Assembly (NCBI RefSeq): GCF_963678165.1
Contig: NZ_OY782755.1
Span: 2,480,001-2,544,000 of the forward strand
Length of the DNA stretch: 64,000 nt
Direction: 5' to 3'
Origin: an uncultured Acetobacteroides sp.
GTDB lineage: Bacteria; Bacteroidota; Bacteroidia; Bacteroidales; ZOR0009
The position numbers and the translations under genes were made by a program. The notes beneath the pieces were generated by a model. It was not told the origin of the DNA. It saw only the letters and a list, made by a program, of their open reading frames with translations, and searched no databases. Positions 8,580-64,000 of this stretch are shown piece by piece; the stretch's first letter is position 1, and each line of letters opens with the position of its first letter.

Positions 8580-8830
8580 ACGGGGCGACTTTTCTGCCTT
8601 TACAAAGCTGCATGAAGCTTCCAAGTCGACTTTTTGACCTCAAAAACTTTTTTTGGAGCCTCCAAGTCAACTTTTTTCCTCAAAATATTTTTTTTGAGCC
8701 CTCCAAGTCGACTTTTTAACCTCAAAAACTTTTTTTAGAGCTTCCAAGTCGACTTTTTTGCCTCAAAAACTTTTTTTGAGGCCGCCAAGTCGACTTTTTT
8801 GCCTCAAATGTTTTTTTTGAGGCCGCCAAA
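8580..8830. repeat. Tandem array A: 41-bp units with terminator-like dyads
   Basis: Five copies with an exact 41-bp period start at 8621, 8662, 8703, 8744 and 8785. A degenerate copy precedes them at 8580 and a 4-bp remnant (CCAA) is at 8826. Each unit begins CCAAGTCGACTTTTTT (GTCGAC is itself a palindrome) and then carries a dyad CCTCAAAAA / TTTTTGAGG, so each unit resembles a small intrinsic terminator. The array fills the whole gap between the DUF3795 gene and the WYL gene. Copies 4 and 5 are nearly identical. Confidence 0.95.
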
Positions 8831-8848
8831 CCAGCTGTATCGTACGCG

Positions 8849-9193
8849 CTACTTCCGCTTGATGGTTTGCATCTTCCTATCGGCCATCTCTACGGCGTAG
8901 GCTAGGTAGCCCACCTCCTTGATGCGCGCGATGCACTTCGATCGGTCGGAGTTAAAGACCAACCCGAACATCTTAGCCATAAAGTTATTGAAGAGCTTGC
9001 AGCGTTCGTGCCCACCCGTCTTGCAGTCGGCACAGCTGGCAATACCGTTGCTGATGCAGCAGCTGCGCACCTTGCACCAGGTAGCCTTTTGGTTATCGGC
9101 ACAACCGGGGCACTTCCCGCTCAGCAGCCTTCGGCAGGCGCCGCAGTAGAGGCCGCAGTAGGCCACATACTTCCTATCGGCAACAACATCCAT
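8849..9193 (-). CDS. DUF3795 cysteine-rich protein
   Basis: 114 residues with 13 cysteines. They cluster as YCGLYCGACRR, KCPGC, CKVRSCC, CADC and CKLF, the pattern of DUF3795 proteins, which are thought to bind metal; their biochemical role is unknown. No signal peptide or membrane segment is visible. The start ATG at 9193 is supported by a TACTTTTG promoter box at 9223-9216. Downstream lies repeat array A, so transcription probably ends within it. The family call rests on the cysteine pattern and length. Confidence 0.88.
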   Translation of the reverse strand: MDVVADRKYVAYCGLYCGACRRLLSGKCPGCADNQKATWCKVRSCCISNGIASCADCKTGGHERCKLFNNFMAKMFGLVFNSDRSKCIARIKEVGYLAYAVEMADRKMQTIKRK

Positions 9194-9215
9194 AATCGAT
9201 ATTTTTAGTGGTAAA

Positions 9216-9223
9216 CAAAAGTA
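9216..9223 (-). promoter_or_regulatory. Candidate -7 box of the DUF3795 gene
   Basis: TACTTTTG on the minus strand, 23 nt before the ATG at 9193, matches TAnnTTTG. Confidence 0.5.
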
Positions 9224-9250
9224 AATAAAAGGAAGGGGGAATGCTACAGC

Positions 9251-9703
9251 TTACCGCACCTCCAGCTGAATTTCGGTAAGGCAGTTGGCAGGATTCTCGA
9301 AATCGCAGCGGTGGTAAACCTCGCGCGAAGCTGCCCCCATTTGTAGCCCTGCAGCCACCATATCGCCCATCAGCGCCTCGTAGGCCTTGCCAAGGTCGTT
9401 CCACGACCCCTCGTGCATGGCGCAGGCGCACCTAAACGAGCCAAGGGTGATGAACTCGAAACCGCCCCTATCCTGCCCCTTGCGCTCTACCGGAACGCAT
9501 ATCAGCAGGTCGAACTCCGTTTCGGGATTCCCATCGCAGCCGGCATAGTGCCAAATCTGGCTTCCCGTAGGATTAATTCCCTGCGATGCCAGCTCCGCCA
9601 TCAGCCGCTCGGGCGTACTACCAACAAATTCGTGAATGGCGCTAAGCGATGTACGCACCTTCGTACCGCAAACAAGCATTGTCTCAACAACTTTAACTTC
9701 CAT
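9251..9703 (-). CDS. GyrI-like / effector-binding-domain protein
   Basis: 150 residues, a stand-alone GyrI-like fold as found in the C-terminal drug-binding half of AraC- and MerR-type activators (TRASH/SOUL-like beta-alpha-beta repeats). Visible features are a first half with GINPTGSQIWHYAG and a second half with SFRCACAMHEGSWNDLGKAY; the 'his/glu near WNDL' layout is typical of the family. It may bind small hydrophobic or cationic compounds. It lies in the same direction as the DUF3795 gene, 57 bp upstream of that gene's start, but both have their own promoter boxes. Start ATG at 9703; promoter box TAGTTTTG at 9737-9730. Confidence 0.82.
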   Translation of the reverse strand: MEVKVVETMLVCGTKVRTSLSAIHEFVGSTPERLMAELASQGINPTGSQIWHYAGCDGNPETEFDLLICVPVERKGQDRGGFEFITLGSFRCACAMHEGSWNDLGKAYEALMGDMVAAGLQMGAASREVYHRCDFENPANCLTEIQLEVR

Positions 9704-9729
9704 AATGTTTTGCTTAAATGATTACAGTA

Positions 9730-9737
9730 CAAAACTA
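9730..9737 (-). promoter_or_regulatory. Candidate -7 box of the GyrI-like gene
   Basis: TAGTTTTG on the minus strand, 26 nt upstream of the start at 9703, matches TAnnTTTG. Confidence 0.5.
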
Positions 9738-10863: not shown

Positions 10864-10886
10864 CATTAATATCATACAATCAAACA

Positions 10887-14336: not shown

Positions 14337-14530
14337 GGCATCAACCTGCCTCAAGCAGCTAATAAGCTGCTCCGAACTGGTTATTACCCCCTTCATAGGG
14401 GGCTACAACCACCTCCAAGCAGGTTATTACCCCCCTTGTAGGGGGTAATAACCACCCCAAAGGGGGTTACCAACCACCTCCGAGGGGGATATTACCCCTT
14501 CGAAGGTGGTTACCGCCACTAGTGGTTCCC
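14337..14530. repeat. Tandem array B: degenerate 21-22-bp units, GC-rich
   Basis: Units beginning GG(C/T)TA start at about 14337, 14358, 14379, 14401, 14422, 14444, 14465, 14487 and 14509 (steps 21, 21, 22, 21, 22, 21, 22, 22). The words alternate between GGTTATTACCCCC and CAACCACCTCC types, and neighbouring units pair: 14422-14434 with 14441-14453 forms a 13-bp perfect stem. The array lies in the 477-bp gap between the divergent TonB receptor and the ECF sigma factor. Confidence 0.85.
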
Positions 14531-22061: not shown

Positions 22062-22134
22062 TTGTTTATTTCATTTTTTGGTGCAGCCTCGGAGCAGCGC
22101 CAAGCTAAAAAGTTAAAGCCACCCGAGCCGCTAC

Positions 22135-22596
22135 CGCAATCGGCCCTGCCGCTGGTGCAACGGCGTATGACCGCTTCGCAATTGACCTTGGCCATGACGC
22201 AATGACATGTGGCAGTCTCGCAATCGAGTTTGGCCATGACGCAATGACATATGCCGGTCTCGCAATTGAGTTTAGCCATGACGCAATGGCATGTACCGGT
22301 CTCGCAATTGAGTTTAACCATGACGCAATGACATGTGGCGGTCTCGCAATTGAGCTTGGCCATAACGCAATGACATGTGGAGGCCTCGCAATCGAGCTTA
22401 CCCCTGACGCAATCGCATCTGGCGCGAGCGCAATCGGCCTTAACCATAACGCAAAGGCATGTGGCGACTTCGCAATTGCATCTGCCGTAAACGCAACCGT
22501 ATCTGACGCGAGCACAATCGACCCTGACCATAACGCAATGGCATGTGGCGGCTCCGCAATTGCACCTGCACCTAGCACAATCTGACCTAAAAACGC
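22135..22596. repeat. Tandem array C: 22 units of exactly 21 bp
   Basis: The word CGCAAT (or a one- or two-base variant: TGCAAC, CGCAAA, CGCAAC, CACAAT) recurs at 22135, 22156, 22177 and every 21 bp up to 22576, with no insertion or deletion over more than 440 bp. Two unit types mostly alternate, one like CGCAATTGAGTTTGGCCATGA split by 21, the other like CGCAATGACATGTGGCGGTCT, giving a 42-bp higher-order period. The ends are more diverged than the middle. The array fills the gap between the divergent HU-SPOR and porin genes. Confidence 0.97.
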
Positions 22597-41885: not shown

Positions 41886-41992
41886 TGTATTACTTTACGC
41901 TACGATATACCGCAAGGCGGCTATAAACACTATACTAATCGTGATAAAACTTACTTGATCTTTTTACGCAAGGCTACTTTAAACCAAATATT

Positions 41993-42460: not shown

Positions 42461-42838
42461 GTATCAATCCATTTTAGATGAAAACAGCTGGCAAAAAGCT
42501 ATATATAAATTTATCTTCCTATTCTATAGATCAAAGAAGAACCGTAAAGGTATAAAATGTTCGAGAATCGGTATTAATGGCTGAAATATGTTACCCCTAT
42601 TGGAATAACCCAATAGGCTACTGTGGCTATCCTTCAATATAGGTTCAACAGATTCGCTTATCCTTCTTCCACCCGCGTTAGGCGAAGACTTCTACCTTCG
42701 CCATTTCTATCATTGCAGGCTATAGCCTGCAAAATAGATTCGTCTGAGGCTGTGCCTCAGACGAACAGAACCTTGCACTCGAGTAAACTTCGCTTAGCGA
42801 AGGCAAGATGGACAATGTGCTTTTCAGCAAACCCTAAA
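42461..42838. repeat. Intergenic region with a diverged copy of the block element
   Basis: 378 bp. From about 42671 to 42810 it carries a diverged copy of the element repeated through the block: CGCGTTAGGCGAAGACT at its left end, the palindrome GCAGGCTATAGCCTGC, then different right-hand hairpins (TCGTCTGAGG / CCTCAGACGA and CTTCGC / GCGAAG). A 91-codon plus-strand ORF across it is not a gene. Confidence 0.75.
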
Positions 42839-44725: not shown

Positions 44726-44761
44726 CGTATCATTTTTTAATAAATTCCTAAAGCTGTTATT

Positions 44762-44861
44762 CTGTTTTTTCTTTTTTGTAAAGCGAAATAGTCCCATGGT
44801 AAGCGATCGCTTTACTTGTTTTTGCAAAACCGCATGCCTATACGTACATGTCGGCGCAATA
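44762..44861 (-). repeat. Duplicated leader and 5' end of the 56.2-kb gene
   Basis: Read on the minus strand this 100-bp stretch matches 56160-56258 on the plus strand: the word TATTGCGCCGAC, then a TGCG..TTTTGCAA core, then ACCATGGGACTATT and a lysine-rich coding start (MGLF-FTKKK). It is therefore a copy of the leader and first about 12 codons of the unrelated gene at 56223. Its ATG is in frame with the serine hydrolase gene. Confidence 0.88.
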
Positions 44862-45294
44862 ACAGTAGATAAGACAAACAGGATAGTTTAACGTTACAAT
44901 AAATAATGTTAAATAAATATGATTAAATGAAGTTCGGCGGAGTAAAAATGCGAAACCAATGAAGCTAAAGAATAGAAGGCTACCGACGCTCAGCTGCGGA
45001 CTTACTCAATAATTCGGAGCATAGCCCCGCGTTAGGCTAAGACTCCTGCCCATAGCCGTCAAACTAAGAGATACCCTACTTAAAGGAAGTGCTTATGGCA
45101 TGCCTATTTTCGACTCACCCCTAAATTCCCTCTCTTAGCCGAGTGGTTGGGTAGCCAGTAAAACAACGGTTACTTCTTCTACCTATTTTGCTTAAGCAAT
45201 GCCTGCTCGGCTAAAAAGAGGGGAATTCCAGCGCTCCGATTAGGCAGTAGTTATATCCGTACCACATCCCAATCGCTTTAATAAAGTATCTGCC
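44828..45294. repeat. Intergenic region with left copy of a 246-bp direct repeat
   Basis: 467 bp. Positions 45025-45270 match 46656-46901 base for base at most positions (about 90% by eye), both 246 bp. The left end is CCCCGCGTTAGGC, like the start of the block element. It includes the word AGCCGAGTGGTTGGGTAGCC. A second shared word, TACTCAATAATTCGGAGCAT, is at 45004 and again at about 46199. Confidence 0.88.
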
Positions 45295-46176
45295 TTATAC
45301 TTTATGCATTTTTTCCTTCATTGGCTTTGAATAGCTACTTGATAGCTGGTATTTATCCCTTAGCTCATTAACCATTTTATATAGATTATCCTTGTACTCC
45401 CTGTTTGCCCCGCCTTTTTTATATAAATCAAGAAAATACTGGTAAAGCTCAGGAAATTGGGTTTGTATAAAGCTGAAAAATGATGTCCTGGTTTTACCCC
45501 TTAAGTACAATGTGCCGGGTAACATATAATGAACCTTAGCATCGCAGGCATAATAACAGAGTGAGTTCAGATTCTCATAGCCATCCGTTAAATATGGAAT
45601 TATGGGCATTACGTGTAGTCCTACAGAAGCATTTGTTTTCCTGAAAGCTTTGAGCATTTCGAATCGTTTCAAGCTTTCGGCAGCACCTGGCTCAATCAGC
45701 TGTCGTATTTTCTCATCGGTAGTTGTTATTGTAGAGGCAATATTTACATATGTTATCCTCGATAGCTCATCAACTAATTCGTAATCGCGTAAACCCAAAT
45801 CTGATTTTGTCGAAATAATGGCAGGTGTTTTATACTTTATCAATAGCTTCAAAACCTCCGGCATTATTTTATACGTTGCCTCACAAGGTTGATAGCTGTC
45901 GGTAACACCCCCAATATTAATAATCTCACGATTCCAACTTTTGCTGCGAAGTTCAACCTCTAGCATCTCAACAATGTTGGATTTTATATAAATATTCTCT
46001 GAGAAATTATCATCGTCTAAGTATTCGTGAGAATACATGGCATAACAGTATTGGCATTTATGCTCACACCCCCGATAGATATTCAAATCCCAACCATACG
46101 GATATTTCCGCTTAAGTGGGTTTAAAGCAGCTTGACAACTTGTCTCGATATAATTGGCTGTTCGTTTTGCTTCCAT
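45295..46176 (-). CDS. SPL-like (Rv2578c-type) radical SAM protein
   Basis: 293 residues. The iron-sulfur cluster motif is CEHKCQYC (Cx3Cx2C, at about 36-43) in YRGCEHKCQYCYAMYS. The spacing and the following residues identify the spore-photoproduct-lyase-like radical SAM family. Further family marks are IGGVTDSYQPCE and STKSDLGLRDYELV. It would use S-adenosylmethionine and a 4Fe-4S cluster; the substrate is unknown and photolyase activity is not implied. It is flanked by the two copies of a 246-bp direct repeat, which suggests it came or could move as a unit. Start ATG at 46176. Confidence 0.9.
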   Translation of the reverse strand: MEAKRTANYIETSCQAALNPLKRKYPYGWDLNIYRGCEHKCQYCYAMYSHEYLDDDNFSENIYIKSNIVEMLEVELRSKSWNREIINIGGVTDSYQPCEATYKIMPEVLKLLIKYKTPAIISTKSDLGLRDYELVDELSRITYVNIASTITTTDEKIRQLIEPGAAESLKRFEMLKAFRKTNASVGLHVMPIIPYLTDGYENLNSLCYYACDAKVHYMLPGTLYLRGKTRTSFFSFIQTQFPELYQYFLDLYKKGGANREYKDNLYKMVNELRDKYQLSSSYSKPMKEKMHKV

Positions 46177-46357
46177 TACAATATATTTGGTTAGGATTTA
46201 CTCAATAATTCGGAGCATAGCTCAACAGGATAGCCCTCAGTATTTCTTAAATGTACATCCGCATCTTCCGATCAGCCAAACTAATTGGTCCGCTGATAGA
46301 ATTCACGGCTTTGATCCGCCCACCCTTGTGCATATTATATGACGAGCAAGGGGCATT

Positions 46358-46543
46358 CTACATTAAGTCTTTTCTATGAAGTGTAATGAAGGCTGTAGGC
46401 ATCCACCACATGTTTACCCCAAACGAAACGGATACGATTTCATATCCTTCAAGAGTTTTCTTGTTAAGAACCTCTTCAACCTTTCTAATCAGCGAACTCA
46501 TCGACCATGAGGCTGAGATTTTAATTATAGTATACCTCTTCAT
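46358..46543 (-). CDS. Small DUF4177-like protein
   Basis: 61 residues, pattern MKRYTIIKISA..., VEEVLNKKTLEGYEIVSVSFG, then TAFITLHR, the layout of the small 'LN..eGyelvsv' DUF4177-type family. No function is known. It is very short, but codon use is normal, an A-rich leader precedes the ATG at 46543, and the family pattern is good. It lies inside the same pair of 246-bp repeats as the radical SAM gene. Confidence 0.65.
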   Translation of the reverse strand: MKRYTIIKISASWSMSSLIRKVEEVLNKKTLEGYEIVSVSFGVNMWWMPTAFITLHRKDLM

Positions 46544-47199
46544 TTTCTTTTAATTTTTCATCTTTCAATTTTTCGCTTACCGCTATTCCAGTAAAAATCA
46601 AGTCAATCTATCATTAAGGTTCACGCCCTAGGCAAAGCCTCCTTCCTTTGTTGCGCCCCGCGTTAGGCGAAGGCTCCTAACCATAGCCGACAGGCTAAGA
46701 GATACCCTACTTAAAGGAAGTGCTTATGGCATGCCTATTTTCGACTCACCCCTAAATCCCCTCTCTTAGCCGAGTGGTTGGGTAGCCAGTAAAACAACGG
46801 TTACTTCTTCTACCTCTTTTGCTCAGGCGATGCCAACTCGTCTAAAAGAGGTGACTTCCAGCGCTCCGATTAGGCAGCAGCTTATATCCGTGCCACATCC
46901 CCCTCTTTGCGAATGGCTGGCATGGGCTTACAGCCTCGCCAGGCTTTCTAATGCCATTCGGAGAGAGGGGGATTGGGGGTGAGTCGAAATTGCTAAGCGG
47001 TTAGCACCTTTTTTGTCGCTTACATATGCTTAGCTTGACGGCTGAAGCACAGCCTCGCCCGAACAGAGTATATTCACTTACTTGTTTGTGCCACTGACCG
47101 CGCGGGAGCTAAACTCCCAAAGCCCACAAAAGTTAGGGCTACTTTATGATGTCTTGTTAGCTGCAGGGCTTTCTTTTTAATTCCTCCCACAGTACACAT
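46544..47199. repeat. Repeat-rich intergenic region with right copy of the 246-bp repeat
   Basis: 656 bp. It holds the right copy of the direct repeat (46656-46901) and then a long imperfect hairpin (46899-46971) with arms CCCCCTCTTTGCGAATGGC and GCCATTCGGAGAGAGGGGG. Next is the word GCGGGAGCTAAACTCCC near 47103, and finally TTATGATGTCTTGTTAGCTG at 47144-47163, which recurs at the other end of the cupin gene. No ORF here is supported. Confidence 0.8.
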
Positions 47200-47655
47200 T
47201 TACAAATCCTTATATGAGTACATTTTATCTTGTCCTGATTCACCTGAAATCAACCCTATCTTATTATCTGCGGGCATAAATACTACATCAGGTAAGTTTG
47301 TTGTTCCTAAATCTAGATATTTTAGTGTTTCACTATCTGATGTATTCTTTAATTGATGTACCCCTTTTTCTCCGGCGGGAAATCTTAAAATATCGCCCGA
47401 CTTAACTTTTAATACTCCATTTTCCGTTATCACTTCCCCATACCCTTCAATAATATAGAAAACTTCCTCGTTGCAGGTATGATAATGGAGTGGCCAATTG
47501 GCTTTCATTGGCGGAATTTCATATATATCACAGTACAATTTATTGACGTGCTCATCATCAATTAATCTTTTTCTGTGATGTTCTATGTCATCAGCCTTCG
47601 ACCAGCTATTCCATTCTACTTCACTTTCATTGAATTTTAATGTTTCATCTTTCAT
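47200..47655 (-). CDS. Cupin-domain protein
   Basis: 151 residues. The cupin motif 1 is WPLHYHTCNEEVFYIIEGYG at about 55-74 (G(X)5HXH(X)3,4E) and motif 2 lies in LRFPAGEKGVHQL at about 92-104, which has one of the usual His. Two His, a Glu and a later His could bind a metal. Single-domain cupins of this kind include isomerases, dioxygenases and sugar-binding proteins, and the substrate here is not known. A 20-bp imperfect repeat flanks the gene on both sides (47144-47163 and 47651-47671). A+T-rich codon use. Confidence 0.85.
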   Translation of the reverse strand: MKDETLKFNESEVEWNSWSKADDIEHHRKRLIDDEHVNKLYCDIYEIPPMKANWPLHYHTCNEEVFYIIEGYGEVITENGVLKVKSGDILRFPAGEKGVHQLKNTSDSETLKYLDLGTTNLPDVVFMPADNKIGLISGESGQDKMYSYKDL

Positions 47656-47697
47656 AACGTCTTGTTATCTGATTATAGATTATGCTTATCTCGACAG

Positions 47698-47849
47698 CTC
47701 CCTCGCTAGGCGTAGCCTCCTACCCTCGTCAATTCTATCATTGCAGGATACAGCCAATGCTTTTTCTTACGCCCTCTGGTCTTAAATAACAGGCTAGAAG
47801 CCTTGCCTACTTGAGCGTAGCGAGGACGCTACGCTCAGCTGCGGCACCG
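47698..47849. repeat. Block element (gene-associated ~150-bp repeat)
   Basis: One of the well-preserved copies, ending 8 bp after the stop of the 47857 gene. On the plus strand it has a CTAGGCGTAGCC-type left end, CAATTCTATCATTGCAGG, CTTTTTCTTACGCCCTCTGG, GGCTAGAAGCC, and the hairpin GAGCGTAGC / GCTACGCTC, ending CAGCTGCGG. Other conserved copies are at about 50081-50223, 51045-51196, 52095-52241 and 53061-53208; degenerate copies are at about 48543-48662 and 49182-49218. Confidence 0.9.
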
Positions 47850-47856
47850 TATTTTC

Positions 47857-48513
47857 TTAATTGTATATTTTTGAAGTAAAAAGTGGAGGAAACATCTTTA
47901 GCCATTCATCACTTTCTCTAATGGATTTTCCATCTTTTTCGAACTTTTCTCGAATCATTTTATACTCGCTTGTTTGCTGAAATAACCCAAATTGTGAATC
48001 CTTAAATTTTTCATATTCATCAAATGACATTTTTTGTTCACCAAGTATTTCGCCTTTAACTACTTTAATTACATAATACTTTTCATAAACAGATGCATAA
48101 CTCATATCTACATTCTTTATTTTTTTACCGTACGAAAGAACTAAATATCCACTATACCAATCACAAGAAAATAGGGTTTGACCTGGAAAAACAACATTCA
48201 TTGCACTAACAAATGCTAATGAATCACGATTCTTAGAATCTTTAACTTGATCTAGGTATTCTATATTCTTAACATATAATCTATTATTAATAATGCTGAA
48301 TGACCCTACATAAGCTCGTAATAAACATGATGCTTTTGAACCAATTCCCAACATTGGACGCTTTTCGGGATGTTCTTTAAAGTAATATACCAATGGATTT
48401 GTCTCTAATGAATATGTTGAATCTTTATAGAAAATCTTATCTGGCAGCTGAGTTGAGCAATAAACCGATAATGAAAAAGCAAAGTTTGCTAATAGTAAAA
48501 GTAATGATCTCAT
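47857..48513 (-). CDS. Secreted hypothetical protein
   Basis: 218 residues with a signal peptide (LLLLANFAFSLSVYCS). The mature part is mixed alpha/beta with charged segments (KEHPEKRPMLGIGSKASCLL) and near the end DEYEKFKDSQFGLFQ. No membrane segment or known family is seen. It is one of the lone minus-strand genes of the accessory block and is followed by a block element 8 bp after the stop. A+T-rich codon use. Confidence 0.72.
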   Translation of the reverse strand: MRSLLLLLANFAFSLSVYCSTQLPDKIFYKDSTYSLETNPLVYYFKEHPEKRPMLGIGSKASCLLRAYVGSFSIINNRLYVKNIEYLDQVKDSKNRDSLAFVSAMNVVFPGQTLFSCDWYSGYLVLSYGKKIKNVDMSYASVYEKYYVIKVVKGEILGEQKMSFDEYEKFKDSQFGLFQQTSEYKMIREKFEKDGKSIRESDEWLKMFPPLFTSKIYN

Positions 48514-48542
48514 AGATTCTTTTTTAAGTTGTATTTTTTTTC

Positions 48543-48662
48543 GACAGTCCGCTAAGCGTAGGCTCAGCCTACGCTTTTATTCCTTACGGCCTCCGCCCGT
48601 ACTAAGCAGGCTAGAAGCCTTGGCTACTAGGGCGTAACTATGACGCAATGCCTAACTGTGGC
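48543..48662. repeat. Degenerate block element
   Basis: A shortened copy with CGCTAAGCGTAGGC, CAGGCTAGAAGCCTTGGCTACT, and GACGCAATGCCTAACTGTGGC at its right end. It ends 9 bp after the stop of the 48672 gene. The GCCTAAC heptamer fits the attC-like RYYYAAC core. Confidence 0.75.
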
Positions 48663-48671
48663 AATTGAATT

Positions 48672-49094
48672 TTACCTATTTTGCAATTCAATTTTATCGA
48701 CATTATTAAGATTAATTGGAGTAATATTCACTCCAAAAAAATGATCATTCTTCCCCGTTATAGTACTATCTTTTACTAGTAATGTGTCAAAATAAAACGT
48801 TTTACGAGTACCGTCCTTTTTGGTAATTCTTACACCAGTCTGTCTTGAGACAGGAATTATACATTCATGCTCATCTTTATCGAATACCTTTATTTCTTTC
48901 AACGAATTACCAGTCACAACCCCAGGAAAAACAATTGGAAGTGCAACTATATAATTGATTTTCTTTTCAGGCTGAGACGTTGCAAGCTGCTCTAGTAAGC
49001 TTGTAGTTGTAATATGGTATGTAGCACAACCTGACATTACAACTAGTGAAACAAACATAATAGCAACGCGTTTAACTTTCATTTTCTGCTTCAT
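48672..49094 (-). CDS. Small lipoprotein, unknown function
   Basis: 140 residues with a lipoprotein signal (VAIMFVSLVVMSGCATYH; Cys23). The mature part is beta-rich with the words YIVALPIVFPGVVTGN, KDGTRKTFYFD and FFGVNITPINLNNVDKIEL. No family is recognised. It would be an envelope lipoprotein. It is one of the lone minus-strand genes of the accessory block, followed by a degenerate block element. Confidence 0.72.
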   Translation of the reverse strand: MKQKMKVKRVAIMFVSLVVMSGCATYHITTTSLLEQLATSQPEKKINYIVALPIVFPGVVTGNSLKEIKVFDKDEHECIIPVSRQTGVRITKKDGTRKTFYFDTLLVKDSTITGKNDHFFGVNITPINLNNVDKIELQNR

Positions 49095-49181
49095 AATTCT
49101 AAAAAATACTTTTAACGTGTAAAATAGCTATCAAACCTACAGCTTTAGTATAATACTCTCGTTGGAACAGCATACCCTTTA

Positions 49182-49218
49182 CATCCGCGTTAGACTGAGG
49201 CACAGCATCAGACGAACA
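49182..49218. repeat. Fragment of block element
   Basis: CCGCGTTAGACTGAGGCACA is the left end of the element family; the hairpin part is lost. It lies at the 3' side of the 49223 gene. Confidence 0.6.
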
Positions 49219-49222
49219 AATA

Positions 49223-50002
49223 TCAGCTAAACTTAAATCTAATTGGTATAGCAAATTCTGTTTTAACATTTTCACCTTCAAATCTACCAGGTTTCCACTT
49301 AGGCATTGCAGTAACAATCCTCAATGCTTCGCTATTAAGATGCTCCTCGACACCTTCTCTTATCTTTACATTGGTAATTGACCCATCAACATCTACAATA
49401 AAAAAAACATAAACAACACCTTCTATCCCATTCTTCAAAGCATAATCGGGATATTGCAATGTTTTACCAATAAACTCATACAATTCATATAATCCCCCTA
49501 CATATTCAGCAGGTTCAGAATAGGGACAGTACTCCTTTTTATTCCCATTTTCATCATAGCACTCGCCATACAAGCACTCCCCACCTTTCCATTTCTCCGA
49601 TCTTTTAAGCTTACCGTTAGGGTAGTATGCCGTAAAATCGCCATTAAGCTTATCTCCCGAATAGGAGCATGACACTCTTTTCGACCCATCAATATACCAT
49701 TCATCATACTTGCCAGTCTTAACCGGAATATATGAGGAAATACTACCTTTACTATATCTCTTATCGAACACTTCGTACTCAACCATTTTAGTGTTGGTGT
49801 GTAAGTACGAGATTTTGTACAGGTAAACATTCGAATTATTTGGAACAGTTGTGCTATATCCTTCAGCCTTATTCTTATCGCATGGGACAATCAAACCATT
49901 TTGAAATTTATAAAATACAGTATCGCTTGTGCTACTTGCTGGATTTGCCTGTGCTAAAGCAGAAATAGCAGATAATACGAATACTAAAATCACAGTCCTC
50001 AT
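49223..50002 (-). CDS. TonB-C-terminal-domain protein (energy-transducer-like)
   Basis: 259 residues with a signal peptide (ILVFVLSAISALAQA). An N-terminal part has the MORN-like word YYPNGKLKRSEKW. The last 90 residues (about 165-259) match the TonB C-terminal fold: YPDYALKNGIEGVVYVFFIV (cut at GIEGVVYVFFIV), then ITNVKIREGVEEHLNSEAL and MPKWKPGRFEGENV. It lacks the N-terminal membrane anchor and Pro-rich spacer of TonB, so it is not a true energy transducer but a secreted cousin of the kind common in Bacteroidota. It is an accessory-block gene followed by an element fragment. Confidence 0.85.
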   Translation of the reverse strand: MRTVILVFVLSAISALAQANPASSTSDTVFYKFQNGLIVPCDKNKAEGYSTTVPNNSNVYLYKISYLHTNTKMVEYEVFDKRYSKGSISSYIPVKTGKYDEWYIDGSKRVSCSYSGDKLNGDFTAYYPNGKLKRSEKWKGGECLYGECYDENGNKKEYCPYSEPAEYVGGLYELYEFIGKTLQYPDYALKNGIEGVVYVFFIVDVDGSITNVKIREGVEEHLNSEALRIVTAMPKWKPGRFEGENVKTEFAIPIRFKFS

Positions 50003-50080
50003 TATATGTCAAGTTTTTTAATTGTAAATAATTCAGCACCAGTCAATGGCAAGAAATGTAGCGAAGCTCAGTGCAGCCAT

Positions 50081-50223
50081 CCCCCGCGTTATACAAAGAC
50101 TTCTTCCCTCGTCAATTCTACCGTTGCAGGCTATAGCCTACGCTTTTTCTTACGCCCTCTGGCCTTAAATAACAAGCTAGAAGCCTTGGCTACTTGAGCG
50201 TAGCGAGGACGCTCAGCACAGGG
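50081..50223. repeat. Block element
   Basis: A conserved copy: CCCCGCGTTATACAAAGAC at the left, TACCGTTGCAGGCTATAGCC, ACGCCCTCTGGCCTTAAATA, and GAGCGTAGCG / CGCTC at the right. It ends 20 bp after the stop of the 50244 gene. Confidence 0.88.
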
Positions 50224-50243
50224 GTACTGTTTTTCTTCCATTT

Positions 50244-51023
50244 TCAAAGCTTTATTCCGAAATTCTCATATGCAAATGTTCCGCTTCCATGTTTCAATTT
50301 GCCCCTTTCATATAATTCTGAAAAAGCCTTATCCATATCCCTTATAATAGACAATGGAATATCAAGGTCGTGGTGTGCCGGCAAAACTCTCTTTACGTTT
50401 AAACCCAACAATTTTTTTATTGAATTCATATAGGCAATCGGATCCGTTGATGGAAAATATGCAAACAATTCGCCAATATAAATTAAATCACCAGTATATA
50501 AGTAACCTTTATCCTTTTCATAAAAACACATATGTCCTGGTGAATGACCAGGAGTGTGTAATATTTGAATTGTTCGTTGTCCTAACTCAATAGTATCATT
50601 GTCTTTCAGAACTCTCGTTGGAGCTCCTTCAAAAAGGTAATAATTATTAACATCAAAATCTTTAGGGAAATCGCAGGGTTCTTCTACCAAAAAATTTCTA
50701 ACCTGTTCTAAAGTCAAAGGAAATCCGCCATTTATCCATTCTTTTTCGGCTTCGTGTACATAAAAGTCAGGAAAATACTTATGTCCACCAAAGTGATCGT
50801 AATGTACGTGTGTTGTAACTACAGTAATAGGTTTGTTTGTCAATTTCTGTACAGGTTCCCAAATATTTTCTACACCAAGTCCCGTATCAATTAATAAACA
50901 TCTTTCGGTTCCATTTAGTACATAGCAATGTGTTTCTTCCCAATGCTTGTATTCACTTATTACAGATGTGTTATCATCTATTTTTTCGATTGTAAACCAA
51001 TCGCTTTCATTGTCATAAGTCAT
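50244..51023 (-). CDS. Metallo-beta-lactamase-fold hydrolase
   Basis: 259 residues. The MBL metal-binding motif HVHYDH is at 72-77 (HxHxDH) in VVTTHVHYDHFGG; further ligands are in HTPGHSPGHMCFY (about 145-157), TGDLIYIG and LPAHHDLD (about 215). Such enzymes hydrolyse thioesters, lactones or other small esters (glyoxalase II-like). No signal peptide is present, so it is probably cytosolic. It is an accessory-block gene with a conserved block element at its 3' side. Start ATG at 51023, just after a short A+T-rich leader. Confidence 0.9.
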   Translation of the reverse strand: MTYDNESDWFTIEKIDDNTSVISEYKHWEETHCYVLNGTERCLLIDTGLGVENIWEPVQKLTNKPITVVTTHVHYDHFGGHKYFPDFYVHEAEKEWINGGFPLTLEQVRNFLVEEPCDFPKDFDVNNYYLFEGAPTRVLKDNDTIELGQRTIQILHTPGHSPGHMCFYEKDKGYLYTGDLIYIGELFAYFPSTDPIAYMNSIKKLLGLNVKRVLPAHHDLDIPLSIIRDMDKAFSELYERGKLKHGSGTFAYENFGIKL

Positions 51024-51044
51024 TGTTAATTCTACTTTTATTAG

Positions 51045-51196
51045 TTACCCCCGCGTTAGTTAAAGGCTCCTGCCCTCGTCAATTCTACCATTGCAGGCTA
51101 TAGCCTGCGCTTTTTCTTATGCCATATAGCCTTAAATAACAGGCTAGAAGCCTTGGCTACTTGAGCGTAGCGAGGACGCTACGCTCAGCTGCGGGC
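51045..51196. repeat. Block element
   Basis: A full copy: CGCGTTAGTTAAAGGCTCCT at the left, the palindrome GCAGGCTATAGCCTGC, then GGCTAGAAGCC, the hairpin GAGCGTAGC / GCTACGCTC, and CAGCTGCGGGC at the right end, 26 bp from the stop of the 51222 gene. Confidence 0.92.
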
Positions 51197-51221
51197 ACCT
51201 GCCGTTGTCAATGCTATTAAA

Positions 51222-52049
51222 TCAATATTCAATACCATAAACAGCATCCTTTTCGCCTTCTCTTTTAAAAGTTAAGCTGATTTCTCCTTTATCTATTCTA
51301 TAGGATTTAAGATTATCCTTTGATTCTGAAGCCCGTATCTCACCAATTTCTCTTTCAAAAAGCCAATACTTGTTTTCATAAATCGAATAGGAGTAACCAC
51401 CATAAAGCAAGCCTGTTGCATTATTCTTAATTTTATAATTTCCATCTGAAACAACAGTTGTAGGTCCAGTAAAAAAGAAGAAGAATAAAGATAATAATAG
51501 CCCCCCAACAATACCTTCAATGCTTAATAATATTATTGATAAAACAGGAAGGAGTAGATATACATACAAGTATATAGAAATTATAGTTAAAGGCCTTGAC
51601 AGATTAAAACATAATAGCAACGCAGAGGTATATAATGCAATTTTTAATACGTAAACTATATTAGATAAAAAACCAACATCCAGATTACTAACTAATAGAA
51701 TATTTACAAGCAATAAAAAAAATGAAAAAAAATGAATTCTTAATAGCCTTATAACAAACCTATTACAATTGGCATTTTTTACAGTTATAAAACCATTCCA
51801 AACATATCCTTTACCTCTTCGCCTATTCCTTTTATTTATCAAATCTTCAATTTCTAAGCCCAATAGTTTACGGAATAACCTACTTAAAAGTATAAATACT
51901 TTACTTTTTCTTTTACTATAACTTATTCCTCTTCTTTCAAGCTCAAACTTTGCTTGTTCAACGGCCTCAGATTGCCATCCTTCGCCATTAACAATTTCAA
52001 TCAGTTCATTAGTATCTCTACTTGATATAGGCGGTGTAAAATCTACCAT
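51222..52049 (-). CDS. Hypothetical membrane protein
   Basis: 275 residues. A soluble N-terminus (DTNELIEIVNGEGWQSEAVE, then AKFELERRGI) is a short helical motif often found in front of membrane regions in Bacteroidota. It is followed by four membrane helices (about 105-215) and a soluble, mixed C-terminus. The family is not recognised. It lies alone between two block elements. Strongly A+T-rich codon use is unlike the core genes and suggests transfer. Confidence 0.7.
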   Translation of the reverse strand: MVDFTPPISSRDTNELIEIVNGEGWQSEAVEQAKFELERRGISYSKRKSKVFILLSRLFRKLLGLEIEDLINKRNRRRGKGYVWNGFITVKNANCNRFVIRLLRIHFFSFFLLLVNILLVSNLDVGFLSNIVYVLKIALYTSALLLCFNLSRPLTIISIYLYVYLLLPVLSIILLSIEGIVGGLLLSLFFFFFTGPTTVVSDGNYKIKNNATGLLYGGYSYSIYENKYWLFEREIGEIRASESKDNLKSYRIDKGEISLTFKREGEKDAVYGIEY

Positions 52050-52094
52050 GCTCTAAAATGCTTTCTATTATATTATCTGGTCTTATTGCAATCT

Positions 52095-52241
52095 ACCCGC
52101 GTTAGACAAAGACTTCTGTTCTCGTCAATACTACCATTGCAAGCTATAGCCTACGCTTTTTCTTACGCCCTCCGGCCTTAAATAACAGGCTAGAAGCCTT
52201 GGCTACTTGAGCGTAGCGAGGACGCTACGCTCAGCACAGAG
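52095..52241. repeat. Block element
   Basis: A full copy: CCCGCGTTAGACAAAGACTT at the left, CTACCATTGCAAGCTATAGCC, GGCTAGAAGCC, GAGCGTAGC / GCTACGCTC, ending CAGCACAGAGCAC. It lies 3' of the 52337 gene. The left GTTAGAC heptamer fits GTTRRRY. Confidence 0.9.
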
Positions 52242-52336
52242 CACTACGTGCCGCTTAAAGCCCTATTTATTGTGCGGCGTTTTTATTATAACTCATTTCA
52301 GTTTTCCTCATATCAGATCCAAGTTTGTAATTCCAT

Positions 52337-52723
52337 CTAAGTTTTATCAAGTTGCCAACAATCAATATTCAACACTATTCCACTTTCACCAAGTCGTTTC
52401 ATCTCTTCCGGATGAAATTCCATTGCACATTGTTGATCATATTCATATAAAAGCCAAAAAAGTATATCGTTCTTCTTAACACCAAGTTTTTTTAAATCTT
52501 CAAATTTTGGTTCGAGAATGTTTAAAAACTTATTAATGAAGTCAAAATATGGTTCTTCATCTTCAGTTTCTACAGAATATGCCCACAAATCATATTTGTT
52601 GTCAGGTTCCTTTGATGTCTTATATTTCTCAAACTTTGTAGGTTTAACGCCTAATAAATCTGTAATCTTATTATAAGTTTCAATATTGTCATCTATGTAA
52701 ATATACAGATGATGGTATTTCAT
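52337..52723 (-). CDS. DUF4279-like protein
   Basis: 128 residues, no signal peptide. It shows the DUF4279 layout: an N-terminal strand then ITDLLGVKPTKFEK, DLWAYSVETEDEE, an EPKFEDLKKLGVKK helix and a C-terminal CAMEFHPEEMKRLGESGIVL, ending DIDCW-like (NIDCWQLD). DUF4279 proteins are often found near polymorphic toxins or as immunity-type genes, but no toxin is adjacent here. The block element 3' of it lies about 95 bp away, with a GCCGCTTAAAGCCC word between. The role is not known. Confidence 0.8.
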   Translation of the reverse strand: MKYHHLYIYIDDNIETYNKITDLLGVKPTKFEKYKTSKEPDNKYDLWAYSVETEDEEPYFDFINKFLNILEPKFEDLKKLGVKKNDILFWLLYEYDQQCAMEFHPEEMKRLGESGIVLNIDCWQLDKT

Positions 52724-52859
52724 AAGTCTTCAAATGTTATTATGTCAATTTCGTATGACTAGTTTTCTTTAATGCCGCATAACTAGTATATATATCTGAC
52801 TTTATCAGTCCTATCCACCCATTATTGGATGAGTATGTCTGATTAAGAGCTAGACTTTA

Positions 52860-52985
52860 CCATCTACAAGCAGTAAGCCCACCACCCCGAACGGGATGCA
52901 AACGAGGGGAAATACCCAAATCTGTACTAGTAGGCTTACGATTATAAATAGTGCGCCTAAAGTAGCAATAATAGCCTACAGCTAG
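52860..52985 (-). pseudogene. Relic of a small two-helix membrane protein
   Basis: Reads AIIATLGALFIIVSLLVQIW and then VFPLVCIPFGVVGLLLVDGKV to a stop. Two in-frame stops lie immediately upstream, so no start exists. The pattern recalls superinfection-immunity-type two-helix proteins. The copy at about 54.45 kb is frameshifted. Confidence 0.5.
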
Positions 52986-53060
52986 CGCTGCTTAGCTGTG
53001 TTTTTTTAAGAAAAGAGGAGGAAAACAGGTGAATGGGATAGATAAGGGGCTCTTAATTCA

Positions 53061-53208
53061 GCAGGCTACCCATGCTAAGCGTAGTCTCTGCCTACGCTTT
53101 TTCTTACGCCCTCTGGCCTTAAATAACAGGCTTGAAGCCTTGGCTACTTGAGCGTAGCGAGGACGCTACGCTCAGCACAGGGACTATACGCTCAGCTGCG
53201 GAACCGCT
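53061..53208. repeat. Block element
   Basis: A conserved copy fused to the right end of the 275-bp repeat: CTAAGCGTAGTCTCTGCC at the left, ACGCCCTCTGGCC, GGCTTGAAGCC, GAGCGTAGC / GCTACGCTC, and a second CTACGCTCAGCTGCGG at the right end, 46 bp from the stop of the RelA/SpoT-domain gene. Confidence 0.88.
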
Positions 53209-53254
53209 TTTTATATTCGACGATTAGCAAGTAGCACTACATGCCCTTAAAGCC

Positions 53255-54295
53255 CTAATTATTAGCGGTTGTAATTTTCATTGTGTTACAACCTTCACTA
53301 ATTTTCTCAAGAGCATATATAAAATGTGATGTATCCAAAAAGTAACTAGGGTATGCATCTTTTAGAGATTTAATTGAATTTGATGAAACAAGTACTACTG
53401 CATTCGATGAACCTTGAATCGATTTTTCAATTTTCAAATATTCATTAGAAGCTCTTTCTAAATCATTTTTTTTAAACGAAAGTATCTGAACTTTCTTCTC
53501 TTGTGCTTTGATTAAAACTATATAATAATCACCAGGATAATTATTCTCGTCAATTTTATTCGCAGAAATTCTTAGCCCTTTTAATATATTTATAACATTT
53601 AACTTACTTAGCAAATACTCACATTCTAACATTAATTCCTCAATCGTTTTTGACGCATGTTCTTGTATTACAGGTAAATTTTCAATTATTGCAAATAATG
53701 AACTTACTACTTTGAAAAAATAAAGCCACTCATCTGGTCCTTGACTAGATTTTAGAGATGTTTTTGTAATTAGGCCAACTGTTTCAACGGCAGTAGCCCA
53801 ATTATGTTGTAATTTAGTTCTAATCTGCAATTCTAATCTTAACCCATTATACTTTTCAATCTTAGAATTATAACTATATATTAAATGAATACTTCGATAA
53901 CCAGAAAATTTTGGCTTTTCTATGTAATCATTAATTTTTATAAGTTTGTGATTTCTATTTTTCTGCAAAACCATTTTTAATTTTATTAAATCCTTTGTGT
54001 CTCTTAACACAACACGATAACCTCCTATATCTTGCATACCTCCTAATCCCATGCTATCATTAAGGTCTATTTTATATATAATTGATTCAAGTCGTTTTAA
54101 TCTTTGAGAAACTAAAACTGGATTTATTTTATTTTTAATCATTAAACGAACAACAGAATTTTTCATGATATTCAAAGGATGCATATGATTATACCTCCAT
54201 ATATTTATTATATCTAATGCATCATTTATTTCATCTTGACTTTTTGATGTAATCAAGGTTATTCCTGCTTTAGTAATTCGCTTCTTACTTACCAT
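53255..54295 (-). CDS. RelA/SpoT-domain nucleotide (pyro)phosphokinase-like protein
   Basis: 346 residues. Synthetase-domain motifs are visible: MQDIGGYRVVL at about 87-97, KPKFSGYRSIHLIY at 127-140, ELQIRTKLQHNWATAVE at 155-171. The HD hydrolase and regulatory TGS/ACT domains of Rel are absent, and the C-terminal 170 residues are unrelated to them (helical, then SSNAVVLVSSN). Small enzymes with this arrangement include (p)ppGpp synthetases and toxSAS toxins that pyrophosphorylate tRNA or make other alarmones. No antitoxin-like neighbour is seen, so function is uncertain. The gene is very A+T-rich and lies exactly between two 275-bp direct repeats, which suggests recent acquisition. Confidence 0.87.
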   Translation of the reverse strand: MVSKKRITKAGITLITSKSQDEINDALDIINIWRYNHMHPLNIMKNSVVRLMIKNKINPVLVSQRLKRLESIIYKIDLNDSMGLGGMQDIGGYRVVLRDTKDLIKLKMVLQKNRNHKLIKINDYIEKPKFSGYRSIHLIYSYNSKIEKYNGLRLELQIRTKLQHNWATAVETVGLITKTSLKSSQGPDEWLYFFKVVSSLFAIIENLPVIQEHASKTIEELMLECEYLLSKLNVINILKGLRISANKIDENNYPGDYYIVLIKAQEKKVQILSFKKNDLERASNEYLKIEKSIQGSSNAVVLVSSNSIKSLKDAYPSYFLDTSHFIYALEKISEGCNTMKITTANN

Positions 54296-54329
54296 TATTA
54301 ATATTTTGGCATGTTGGATAATTCGCTTA

Positions 54330-54604
54330 TATGTCTAACCTTATCAGTTCTTTCCACCCATTTTAGGGTGAGTATGTCTGATTAGAGCTAGACTATTCCA
54401 TCTACAAGCAGTAAACCCACCACCCCGAACGGGATGCAAATGAAGGGAACGTACCCAAATCTGTACTAGTAGGCTTACGATTATAAATAGTGCGCCTAAA
54501 GTAGCAATAATAGCCTACAGCTAGCACTGCTTAGCTCTGTTTTTTTAAGAAAAGAGGAGGAAAACGGGTGAATGGGCTAGAAAAGGGGCGCTTAATTCAG
54601 CAGG
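54330..54604. repeat. Right 275-bp direct repeat
   Basis: Pairs with 52791-53065 and flanks the RelA/SpoT-domain gene. Differences are scattered substitutions plus one extra base that breaks the relic ORF. It ends at TTAATTCAGCAGG, from which array D continues. Confidence 0.9.
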
Positions 54605-54907
54605 CGACTGAATTTAATTCAGTAACCTACTGCGGTTAATTCAGTAGCCGACTGAGCTTAATTCAGTAGCCGACTGCGGTGAATTCAGTAGACGACTAAG
54701 CTTAATTCAGTAACCTACTGCGGTGAATTCAGTAGCCGACTGAGCTTAATTCAGTAACCTACTGCGGTTAATTCAGTAGCCGACTGAGCTTAATTCAGTA
54801 ACCTACTGCGATGAATTCAGTAGCCGACTGCGGTTAATTCAGTAACCTACTGCGATGAATTCAGTAGTCGACTGCGGTTAATTCAGTAACTTACTGAATT
54901 AATTTAG
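54595..54907. repeat. Tandem array D: 14 units of exactly 22 bp
   Basis: ATTCAG starts at 54595, 54617, 54639 and so on every 22 bp to 54881, with a variant at about 54902-54903. There are 14 units and no indel. Each unit carries CAGTA..ACTG as a small dyad (CAGTAGCCGACTG or CAGTAACCTACTG) and a variable tail (CGGTGA, CGGTTA, AGCTTA). EcoRI half-sites recur. The array is noncoding: 22 is not a multiple of 3. Confidence 0.97.
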
Positions 54908-62123: not shown

Positions 62124-62265
62124 CCTTGTTATGTAGCTTTGAACATTGATGGCACAAATGTATAGGTTTATCCTAATTAACAAACTTAACGTAGCGCTTA
62201 TTTTTAAGTTTAAAAACATACCTAAAGCGTATTTTTATCTATAGATATCACCCCATATCAAACAA

Positions 62266-62293
62266 AAAGCCGAACTATTGTAAGTTCGGCTTT
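62266..62293 (-). terminator. Terminator of the phosphomannomutase gene
   Basis: Stem AAAGCCGAACT / AGTTCGGCTTT with a 6-nt loop and T-run, 52 nt after the stop codon at 62346. Confidence 0.88.
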
Positions 62294-62345
62294 GTATTTA
62301 GCTACATACGGAATTTTCGTTCATATTCCCTGTTGCACAAGACTT

Positions 62346-63692
62346 CTACTTGAAGTTTGCAATGATAGCCTTTACGGCCTTTACCTTTTCAACAAGCAAG
62401 TCCTCCGAGGTTGCCTCTGCAAGAAACCTTAGGTAGGGTTCAGTATTCGAAGGTCGAACGTTAAACCACCAGTCGGCAAATTCTAGGCGGTATCCATCGA
62501 AGTCGTAGAAAGCGGTTACGGTTTCAGCCTCCTCAAAATGCTTCTTGATGGCATCCATTGCCTGCTGCTTCTGCTCAATCTTAAAGTTGATTTCGCCGGA
62601 GTTGTGGTAGCAAGATATGGCTGAAATTGCTTCGCTAAAGGAGATCCCCTTACTCTTAAGCTTAGCAACTACGTTAAGCGTAAGAATAGCCGCAAGCATT
62701 CCCGAATCGGAGTAGAAGAAATCCTTAAAGTAGTAGTGCCCGGCAAGCTCGCCACCGTATATACCATCTATCTCGCGAAGCTTAAGCGCCGCATAGGCAC
62801 GCCCTACGCGCCAGGTGTGAATCTCTGCTCCAAAGTTCTTCTTTAGATACTCTCCTACTGCCTTCGACGAGCGGATATCCTGAAGAACGATCTGCCCGGC
62901 GGGCTTACCTTCGAGGAAGTAATGCCCCAACAACGCAATGATAAGGTCGGGCGATACGAACTTTCCCTTTTCATCAACAAACATTACGCGATCGGCATCG
63001 CCATCGAAGATAACGCCTATATCGCTCTTGGTATGGTTTACCAAAGCCTTTAAATCGGCTACGTTGGGTTCATCGAGAGGGTTGGGCTCATGGTTAGGAA
63101 ACGTTCCATCAACATCATCATAGATATAGGTAGGAGTCTCGCCGAATACCTGCTGCACAAAAAGCCCAGCCATACCGTTAGAGCAATCCACCGCAATCTT
63201 TAAATTCGACACATCCTCCAGCTTCGCCTTAAGGAACTCGAGGTACTCCTCCTTAACCTTAATCGGCGTAATGGAACCGCGCTTAGAGGAAGGCTCTACA
63301 TTTCCGCCCAAAACCAGCGACTCCAGCTCCTTTAGCCCAGAATCGTAACCTACAGGGAGAGCATTCTCGCGCGAGATCTTCAACCCATTATACTCTTTTG
63401 GATTATGCGAAGCCGTAATCTGCACCGAAGCCTTAAAGCCCAACTTCGCGGTGGTGTAGTAAACCAAAGGGGTGGTAGCCAACCCTAGATCGAACACATC
63501 GGCTCCGGCATCGTTGATGCCCTTGGTAAGCGCCTCGTAAATCTCTGGTGATGATTCGCGGGCATCCCTACCCACTAAAATTTTAGAGGTTCCCAACAGC
63601 TGTGGAAGAAAGTAGCCAATGCGGTACACATCCTCCCGGTTAAAATCTTTATTGTAAATGCCTCTAATGTCGTACGCGTGAAAAGCACCCAT
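62346..63692 (-). CDS. Phosphomannomutase/phosphoglucomutase
   Basis: 448 residues in four domains. The phosphoserine loop is TASHNPKEYNG (about 92-102), the magnesium loop DGDADRVM at about 229-236, the sugar-binding loop GELAGHYYF at about 310-318, and the C-terminal phosphate loop RPSNTEPYLRF at about 420-430. It interconverts hexose 1- and 6-phosphates for nucleotide-sugar synthesis (envelope polysaccharides, lipopolysaccharide). An upstream in-frame ATG at 63749 would add 19 residues with no homology, so the ATG at 63692 is chosen (MGAFHAYDIRGIY). Confidence 0.96.
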   Translation of the reverse strand: MGAFHAYDIRGIYNKDFNREDVYRIGYFLPQLLGTSKILVGRDARESSPEIYEALTKGINDAGADVFDLGLATTPLVYYTTAKLGFKASVQITASHNPKEYNGLKISRENALPVGYDSGLKELESLVLGGNVEPSSKRGSITPIKVKEEYLEFLKAKLEDVSNLKIAVDCSNGMAGLFVQQVFGETPTYIYDDVDGTFPNHEPNPLDEPNVADLKALVNHTKSDIGVIFDGDADRVMFVDEKGKFVSPDLIIALLGHYFLEGKPAGQIVLQDIRSSKAVGEYLKKNFGAEIHTWRVGRAYAALKLREIDGIYGGELAGHYYFKDFFYSDSGMLAAILTLNVVAKLKSKGISFSEAISAISCYHNSGEINFKIEQKQQAMDAIKKHFEEAETVTAFYDFDGYRLEFADWWFNVRPSNTEPYLRFLAEATSEDLLVEKVKAVKAIIANFK

Positions 63693-63749
63693 AATCAGAT
63701 TATTTATTTTTGTTTTTATGTTAATTCCCTCCTGAAAAATCGGGCGCAC

Positions 63750-64000
63750 AATCTACCTATAATTACTGGAAAGAAAAAATGGTATTTCAACTTTTCGGAA
63801 ACTTCGTCTAGGAGCTGCGCGTTTAAGGCTGACTAAACGCTGCATTCACCCATAAATATCCAAAGGGGACATTACGGCATCTCTACAATAATGTGATATT
63901 TTCGGGTTAGTACAAACTACCTGATGGAAGTACAAACCTAAGCCCGTGTTAGTACAAACCACCCGACGGAAGTACTAACCCAAACCCGTGTTAGTACAAA
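63750..64000. other. Upstream region of the mutase gene, running off the window
   Basis: 251 bp without a gene. The first 150 bp are plain A+T-rich sequence; array E fills the end. Confidence 0.5.
63906..64000. repeat. Tandem array E: 42-bp units, cut by window edge
   Basis: GTTAGTACAAAC recurs at 63906, 63948 and 63990 (period 42). A half-unit AGTACAAAC or AGTACTAAC also falls at 63909, 63929, 63951, 63971 and 63993, i.e. alternating steps of 20 and 22. The array continues beyond the window. Confidence 0.88.

Follow-up and report, generated by a model that had tools for sequence, protein, structure and literature searches.

REP/BIME elements occupy intergenic DNA close to the 3' ends of genes and between convergent genes, are partly palindromic, and are represented by one or a few families per genome. 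Here we describe tandem arrays from a 64,000-nucleotide stretch of an uncultured Acetobacteroides sp. (the window; positions 2,480,001 to 2,544,000 of NZ_OY782755.1), from elsewhere in the same genome, and from two congeners. These arrays are similar to REP/BIME elements in placement and partial palindromes but differ in forming many families with a constant period of about four helical turns, whereas REP/BIME elements have few families and no such period. In 2021, Subirana and Messeguer reported tandem repeats in bacteria whose size is constant, at 20-21 or 52 nt, while the sequence varies (PMC8161180); they equated 20-21 nt with two helical turns and proposed a nucleoid or RNA role; their 2019 survey (PMC6749651) and a transcription report (PMC8625621) concern the same repeat class. 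The original prediction, made from the window, that arrays with a helix-phased period near 21 bp and no common sequence belong to no described family therefore does not hold.

In the portions of these papers considered here, the Subirana-Messeguer repeats match the Acetobacteroides arrays in their many arrays per genome, single size, differing sequences, non-coding location, small species-level families, and partial conservation between strains. However, the described units measure 20-21 nt (range, 20-23) or 52 nt, whereas the basic unit here measures 41-44 nt and a third of the units lack a 21-nt half. In addition, several of the published species are reported to have a short characteristic sequence common to most of their arrays (PMC8161180), a trait that is not universal in that class and that we did not find among the arrays of the source genome.

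Within the Bacteroidetes, Porphyromonas gingivalis carries elements resembling miniature inverted-repeat transposable elements (MITEs), namely BrickBuilt with 23-nt repeats and 464/PgRS with 41-nt repeats (PMC4596501). Like the present arrays, these are minisatellites of about two and four helical turns found at several loci, and BrickBuilt is described there as lying only between genes and as having both conserved and variable positions in its unit. However, BrickBuilt and 464/PgRS are one sequence family each, whereas many families occur here, and BrickBuilt has a leader, a tail, and terminal inverted repeats, whereas our arrays have no general common ends. In Beggiatoaceae, intergenic DNA contains abundant direct repeats of the heptamer TAACTGA, which also occur in some Bacteroidetes; these differ in consisting of one 7-nt sequence located mostly near start codons in their main species, according to the part of that report considered here (PMC4679880). 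Our literature search, with most subscription journals outside its coverage, found no report of a 42-nt class whose sequences are unrelated. New here are the 42-bp class, the lack of a species-wide motif, a deficit of indels between arrays that does not extend to every subset, the conserved period at orthologous sites, and the fast gain and loss of arrays.

A size class near 42 bp confined to intergenic DNA

The source genome (G000) is a single contig of 4.30 Mb, which we sampled as 36 regularly spread stretches of 20 kb (720 kb; the even sample) and five chosen stretches, the window included, that were counted apart. The congeners were sampled as 31 stretches of G002 and 164 kb of G001. One Tandem Repeats Finder (TRF) setting was used; an array was counted if it reached at least 100 bp and a score of at least 100, and the strict class comprises arrays whose base period is 20-22 or 41-44 bp. 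The even sample contains 46 arrays, a density of 64 per Mb that accounts for 1.7% of its sequence, and 42/46 belong to the strict class. The others are a 63-bp array in L104 that has 21- and 42-bp rows, and three arrays in L097. Extrapolation from 43 arrays in 720 kb suggests about 260 in the whole genome. All 33 large arrays in the first 460 kb (window, even, and chosen stretches) are in class, as are 10 of the 11 in the chosen stretches, the exception having a period of 31 bp.

Similar arrays occur in the congeners. G002 carries 65 arrays per Mb; 31/40 belong to the strict class, and another four have periods of 63 or 84 bp. Contigs C2-C4, three stretches of which were already part of this G002 count, carry 62 per Mb (47/53 with a base period of 21, 22, or 40-43 bp). 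The small G001 sample holds seven arrays (43 per Mb), five in class and the others at 171 and 212 bp. Outside the genus, periods are broad: nine arrays in 403 kb of other loci repeat at 41, 45, 69, 74, 86, 90, 107, 110, and 263 bp. A further 399 kb, sampled as a single stretch per family from 20 other families of the order, yielded three arrays and no 41-44-bp array; one low-complexity array from these families lists 21 among seven periods. The enrichment of 20-22- and 40-44-bp periods anticipated from the window is borne out by the 42 strict-class arrays and the one of 63 bp, and neither a broad spread of periods nor a lack of further arrays was found genome-wide.

The three L097 arrays have long periods (196, 213, and 307 bp) and lie inside 8 kb (L097 1191-9053). 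A looser class rule admitted the 307-bp one (L097:2495) and a coding 258-bp array of G002 (L119:12892); the strict rule drops both, and L097:2495 remains among the 95 arrays of the family, pairwise indel, and lag analyses. The sole 31-bp array seen (L106 7351-7498), equal to three helical turns, has a matching G002 site without an array.

The basic unit is about 42 bp, or four helical turns, and is often made of two 21s. Within a range of 40-45 bp, the best lag of the 95 arrays is 42 (63 arrays), 41 (14), 44 (12), or 43 (6), with a mean of 42.17 bp, or 4 x 10.54. The half-period is significant in 48/88 units, clear cases being 21+21 (33 units), 22+22 (9 units), a single 41-bp unit, and a single 43-bp unit, whereas 30/88 give no signal (p > 0.2). 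Because one third of the units have no 21-bp sub-repeat, we regard about 42 bp as the basic unit; the helix-related size class of the original prediction stands, but 21 bp as its basic period does not. Lags of 10 or 11 gave no signal in 59 units of 42 bp, and near three or five turns only one 31-bp base period (L106) and one 54-bp base period (C2-C4) were seen. The best lag is often 84, 105, 126, or 147 bp. Among 41 sub-threshold repeats in the even sample, 14 have periods of 20-22 bp, 3 of 41-43 bp, 3 between 23 and 40 bp, and 21 below 20 bp.

Gene positions came from our own gene caller with arrays masked, and its start sites are crude. Every strict-class non-edge array is intergenic, 40/40 in the even sample and 28/28 in the G002 sample, despite 82% of the G000 sample being coding and 42 bp being frame-neutral; the expectation that such arrays lie in intergenic gaps thus holds for the five window arrays and for both genome samples. 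They do not behave as protein-coding repeats, being outside genes and including periods (22/44, 41, and 43 bp) that break frame. Ten class arrays stood in coding frames in a first gene call; these were open reading frames called on the arrays themselves and were gone after masking. Counted without a significance test, arrays occupy 11/61 convergent gaps in G000 and 10/60 in G002 (21/121 combined), 8/66 (L097:2495 included) and 8/68 divergent gaps (16/134), and 23/238 and 13/190 co-directional gaps (36/428). In co-directional gaps the array is closer to the upstream gene's 3' end in 18/22 cases (manual count, one overlapping case excluded) and in 5/5 cases of the chosen set. At 32/87 gene ends, counted without a control, the gene and the array are separated by a terminator-like hairpin. 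Divergent gaps show no bias, and a promoter or operator role was rejected on that basis. A search for strand asymmetry and for position relative to origin and terminus, which the original prediction had proposed, found neither clustering at ori/ter nor a consistent strand skew in the stretches sampled, and a replication role was set aside.

Families, turnover, and spacing

The 95 arrays, drawn from three species, include 32 that group into 11 families and 63 that are single within the sample; families comprise two to five arrays at separate loci. Taken with the 42/46 arrays in class, this is the combination found in Subirana-Messeguer repeats: many arrays, one repeat size, unrelated sequences. 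Paralogs have the array in common but mostly not the flanks; in the displayed families, real flank sequence is common only to L017/L021, and window array D and L020 have about 15 bases in common at one edge. Because the 41-bp arrays at L017 2665-2944 (left flank) and L021 18473-18612 (right flank) have flank sequence in common, the two appear to belong to a larger segmental duplication. Terminal inverted words of at least 9 bases occur in 3/53 arrays (longest, 18; fraction in shuffles, 0.006), and the common leader or tail and terminal inverted repeats of a BrickBuilt-type MITE are not found in general. At L018 9467-9866 and L191 1192-1639, neighboring arrays with units of two different families adjoin each other or switch, and at L018 the 42-bp register is held across the switch.

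Arrays are gained and lost fast, and the period is conserved at orthologous sites. For 18 G000 arrays (the 31-bp one included), both flanks were found in a congener; an array is present at 7 of these sites, always with the identical base period (7/7), and none above threshold is present at 11. One of these 11, L111, keeps a three-copy 21-bp relic by eye, and the empty orthologous sites that were inspected are not clean insertions. In the reverse direction, 8/9 arrays of G002 and G001 match a G000 array; seven of these are the same pairs, and the match of G2C11:91083 to L106 is doubtful. At L109/L087, a 22-bp array stands close behind the same terminator in both species with hardly recognizable sequence, and near L004:11617, outside the 18, three species have 42-bp arrays with a common dyad.

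No species-wide k-mer was found: the commonest 4- to 7-mers in G000 units are within the shuffled range, in G002 only the top 7-mer exceeds it (5/35 units; at most 4 in shuffles), and where a single k-mer surpasses its own expectation, this reflects families. Recognition therefore cannot be of one common sequence, and a common motif as a universal mark is excluded. Column rates are heterogeneous within the 21/22-bp half-units of 19/49 arrays (p <= 0.05, tree-based dispersion test). A column constraint derived from comparing half-units (p = 5e-10) was rejected as confounded by exchange between halves, and the evidence for short conserved cores is mixed.

A deficit of indels is established in part. 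In 80 non-array intergenic alignments from G000 and G002, we counted 0.098 gap openings per substitution (202/2062), compared with 0.029 between arrays (38/1299, 34 pairs) and 0.035 for newly fetched arrays (54/1529, 37 pairs, with 30 gaps in two pairs); pooled array pairs, own-genome relatives included, give 0.039 (123/3150). Within arrays the value is 0.037 in G000 (79/2165) and 0.059 in G002 (80/1355), counted over 93 arrays with two of base period above 100 bp left out. This is only moderate evidence, because pairs drawn from one family are not independent and because detection favors regular arrays. The prediction that units diverge in sequence more than in spacing holds on the whole (0.029 and 0.035 versus 0.098) but fails for the relatives of window arrays A, B, C, and E (0.096). 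The gaps in the two longest C relatives cancel, since their exact CGCAA cores (18 and 16) all keep to a single 21-bp phase. A per-column indel table showing no deficit (arrays, 0.151; intergenic, 0.148) was discarded because overlapping hits had been counted twice, and a count from unbanded self-alignment was discarded because it slid onto identity.

Five arrays of the window

The five window arrays, listed without strand, illustrate these properties individually. Array A (8613..8829) holds 5.3 copies of a 41-bp unit with the core AAGTCGACTT, defined by TRF and by core spacings of 41, 41, 41, and 41; its relative, a 41-bp array at 505347 of G000, is weak (65 bases, 74%). The least regular is array B (14379..14513, from TRF), a 43-bp unit with an uneven 21/22 sub-repeat and a relative at 4035519-4035667 of G000. 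Array C (22134..22590) has about 22 half-units of 21 bp within 42-bp units and a CGCAA core; TRF places its core at 22176-22569, and the outer limits were set by eye. Its spacing is 21 over 22136-22556, and by eye to about 22577 (22 half-units), the one listed 19/23 step being a single mutated core. A whole-genome search found four further G000 loci related to C, and the CGCAA core is 96-100% conserved in 53 half-units of three C paralogs; the orthologous site in G002 has no array. Array D (54588..54896) comprises 14 half-units of 22 bp in 44-bp units with no indel, its cores separated by thirteen steps of 22. D has an ortholog in G002 and two G000 paralogs, one with 52 substitutions and 0 gaps over 309 bases and the other with 39 substitutions and 1 gap over 276 bases. 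Array E (63906..64000, continuing to 64064 past the window; L004 407-565) repeats at 42 bp as 20+22, with core spacings of 20, 22, 20, 22, 20, 22, and 20; three relatives occur in G000, and the orthologous sites in G002 and G001 have no array.

All five arrays were thus present at about 21 bp or its double as described from the sequence, with 41 in A, 21 in C, 22 in D, 20/22 in E, and less regularity in B; C and D do hold register over about 22 and 14 half-units. The claim that A to E have no common sequence is correct among themselves; genome-wide, B to E, and weakly A, have relatives elsewhere. The checked relatives are repeats of about 21 or 41-44 bp, L186 only as short 21-bp pieces, and their flanks are not common beyond array-like edges. 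Each of the five is intergenic, although the gene left of C, with its crude start site, overlaps the array by 19 bp; B, C, and D sit in divergent gaps. CRISPR was ruled out, the whole unit being repeated without unique spacers and no CRISPR family matching in the window. The window proteins are of Bacteroidota type, including a TonB receptor and a CCDC81-like HU plus SPOR protein. Beside array D, about 15 kb at 39400-54360 corresponds to about 1.6 kb in G002 (L077 4159-5793) and is a probable genomic island; it ends in a RelA/SpoT-domain gene, and the closest relatives found are from Pontibacter and Flavobacterium. The sole Rfam match above the gathering score in the window is an Acido-Lenti-1 RNA at 6614-6659 on the minus strand (43 bits).

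Possible origins of the constant period

With a common motif excluded, RNA structure not supported, and no promoter bias or coding seen, length and phase remain as the properties that the arrays have in common. We tentatively prefer, at somewhat less than even confidence, that selection acts on spacing through a protein assembly whose footprint spans four turns. A DNA-bound assembly with this repeating footprint would dock on one helix face along the array and would read phase and length rather than one fixed sequence; a short core, differing between array families, would perhaps help recognition. Since the arrays need no common motif, one sequence-specific binding protein is argued against. 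Ordinary unequal exchange would grow, shrink, and homogenize the arrays with units kept in register, and arrays would occasionally seed new loci. We infer the protein, its binding, and the function of the assembly, for which a role in the nucleoid or in supercoil handling, within the spaces at gene ends, would fit best. The earlier suggestion that selection or a copying mechanism acts on spacing, for example through a protein binding one DNA face, agrees with the period class and the overall indel deficit, though not with every subset.

Several results weigh against selected spacing. Phase alone permits 31-32 and 52-53 bp, yet only one array of 31 bp and one of 54 bp were seen; it is because these sizes are nearly absent that a fixed four-turn footprint is proposed. 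The analysis yielded no candidate protein. Arrays are dispensable, given that 11/18 have no above-threshold array at the orthologous site of a congener. Relatives of A, B, C, and E within G000 show no indel deficit (31/322), the deficit within arrays is only 1.7- to 2.7-fold, and because TRF and BLAST favor regular arrays, part of it is ascertainment. Exchange between half-units may inflate the tree-based column-rate heterogeneity, and a stricter singleton test finds no column constraint. Unit sequences are also no more curved than shuffled units under the Bolshoy model. Predicted curvature is above that of other intergenic DNA and drops when units are respaced by 5 bp, but unit content adds nothing to it with Bolshoy angles and little with Olson angles; curvature as the selected trait was therefore rejected.

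We rank selection on spacing above a copying process with a built-in ruler, which is a credible but less probable origin. Here a repair, replication, or integrase complex would copy about 42 bp at a time, and no selection would be needed. Arbitrary sequence without a common motif, a period heritable within families, and frequent gain and loss would all be expected, as would the scarcity of sub-threshold repeats between 23 and 40 bp (3, against 14 of 20-22 bp and 3 of 41-43 bp); the frequent best lags at multiples from 84 to 147 bp imply that blocks are copied in whole units. However, the 21/41 sub-threshold repeats below 20 bp imply that duplications of other lengths arise, the indel deficit lasts between most array pairs long after birth, and no strict-class array is found in coding DNA even though 42 bp would stay in frame. 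It is improbable, in our judgment, that the arrays are dispersed selfish satellites or MITE-like elements, comparable to BrickBuilt and PgRS of P. gingivalis, with a unit size that is an accident of the founder families. The small families at separate loci, restricted to intergenic DNA and mostly away from gene starts, would suit such elements, as would the inverted end words in 3/53 arrays, but 50/53 arrays lack inverted ends of at least 9 bases, flanks are mostly not common (L017/L021 having the only real flank and D/L020 about 15 bases), the inspected empty sites are not clean insertions, and founders of unrelated sequence would all have one length.

Transcribed hairpin arrays, kept for RNA structure as small RNAs or attenuators, are a very unlikely explanation. 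Arrays of 52 nt are reported to be transcribed in Bacillus coagulans in the portions of two papers considered here (PMC8161180, PMC8625621), and compensatory changes numbered 37 versus 9 over 12 independent pairs, both directions counted, in a homologous set partly picked by eye. However, a hold-out of 21 pairs gave 11 compensatory changes against 14 others, with a control of 264 to 487 (p = 0.40); within arrays, 26 compensatory changes were found versus 25.0 expected, and the sense strand shows no excess of G-U over A-C (83 to 69, p = 0.29) and is less folded than the antisense strand. Having failed the hold-out and the within-array test, RNA structure was rejected as a general principle. The prediction that most arrays contain internal dyads was likewise not upheld, self-complementarity being in excess in a minority of units (18/53 by folding, 14/88 in a second test) and, among the window arrays, in A and B (p <= 0.05) but not in C, D, or E. 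Least likely of all are operator arrays for locus-specific transcription factors. Palindromic cores do recur, GAAGCTTC every 21 bp in L105:19251 and AACCRTCGAYGGTT near L004:11617 and its congeners, but there is no promoter bias, convergent gaps are most often occupied, and the many loci have unrelated cores with no common k-mer.

The selected-spacing reading and its alternatives have implications beyond this genus. If the described sizes are tied together as whole helical turns, then 21 bp would be two turns, 42 bp four, and 52 bp five. It is conceivable, though doubtful, that one sequence-indifferent four-turn ruler builds or maintains several hundred unrelated satellites in this lineage, with two and five turns in other bacteria, as a general bacterial chromatin-like or copying activity that would gauge length and phase. 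With three congeneric genomes, one size class, fast turnover, and a conserved period, these arrays provide a strong test case for an unexplained bacterial phenomenon, in which the choice between a selected spacing and a copying ruler becomes directly testable.

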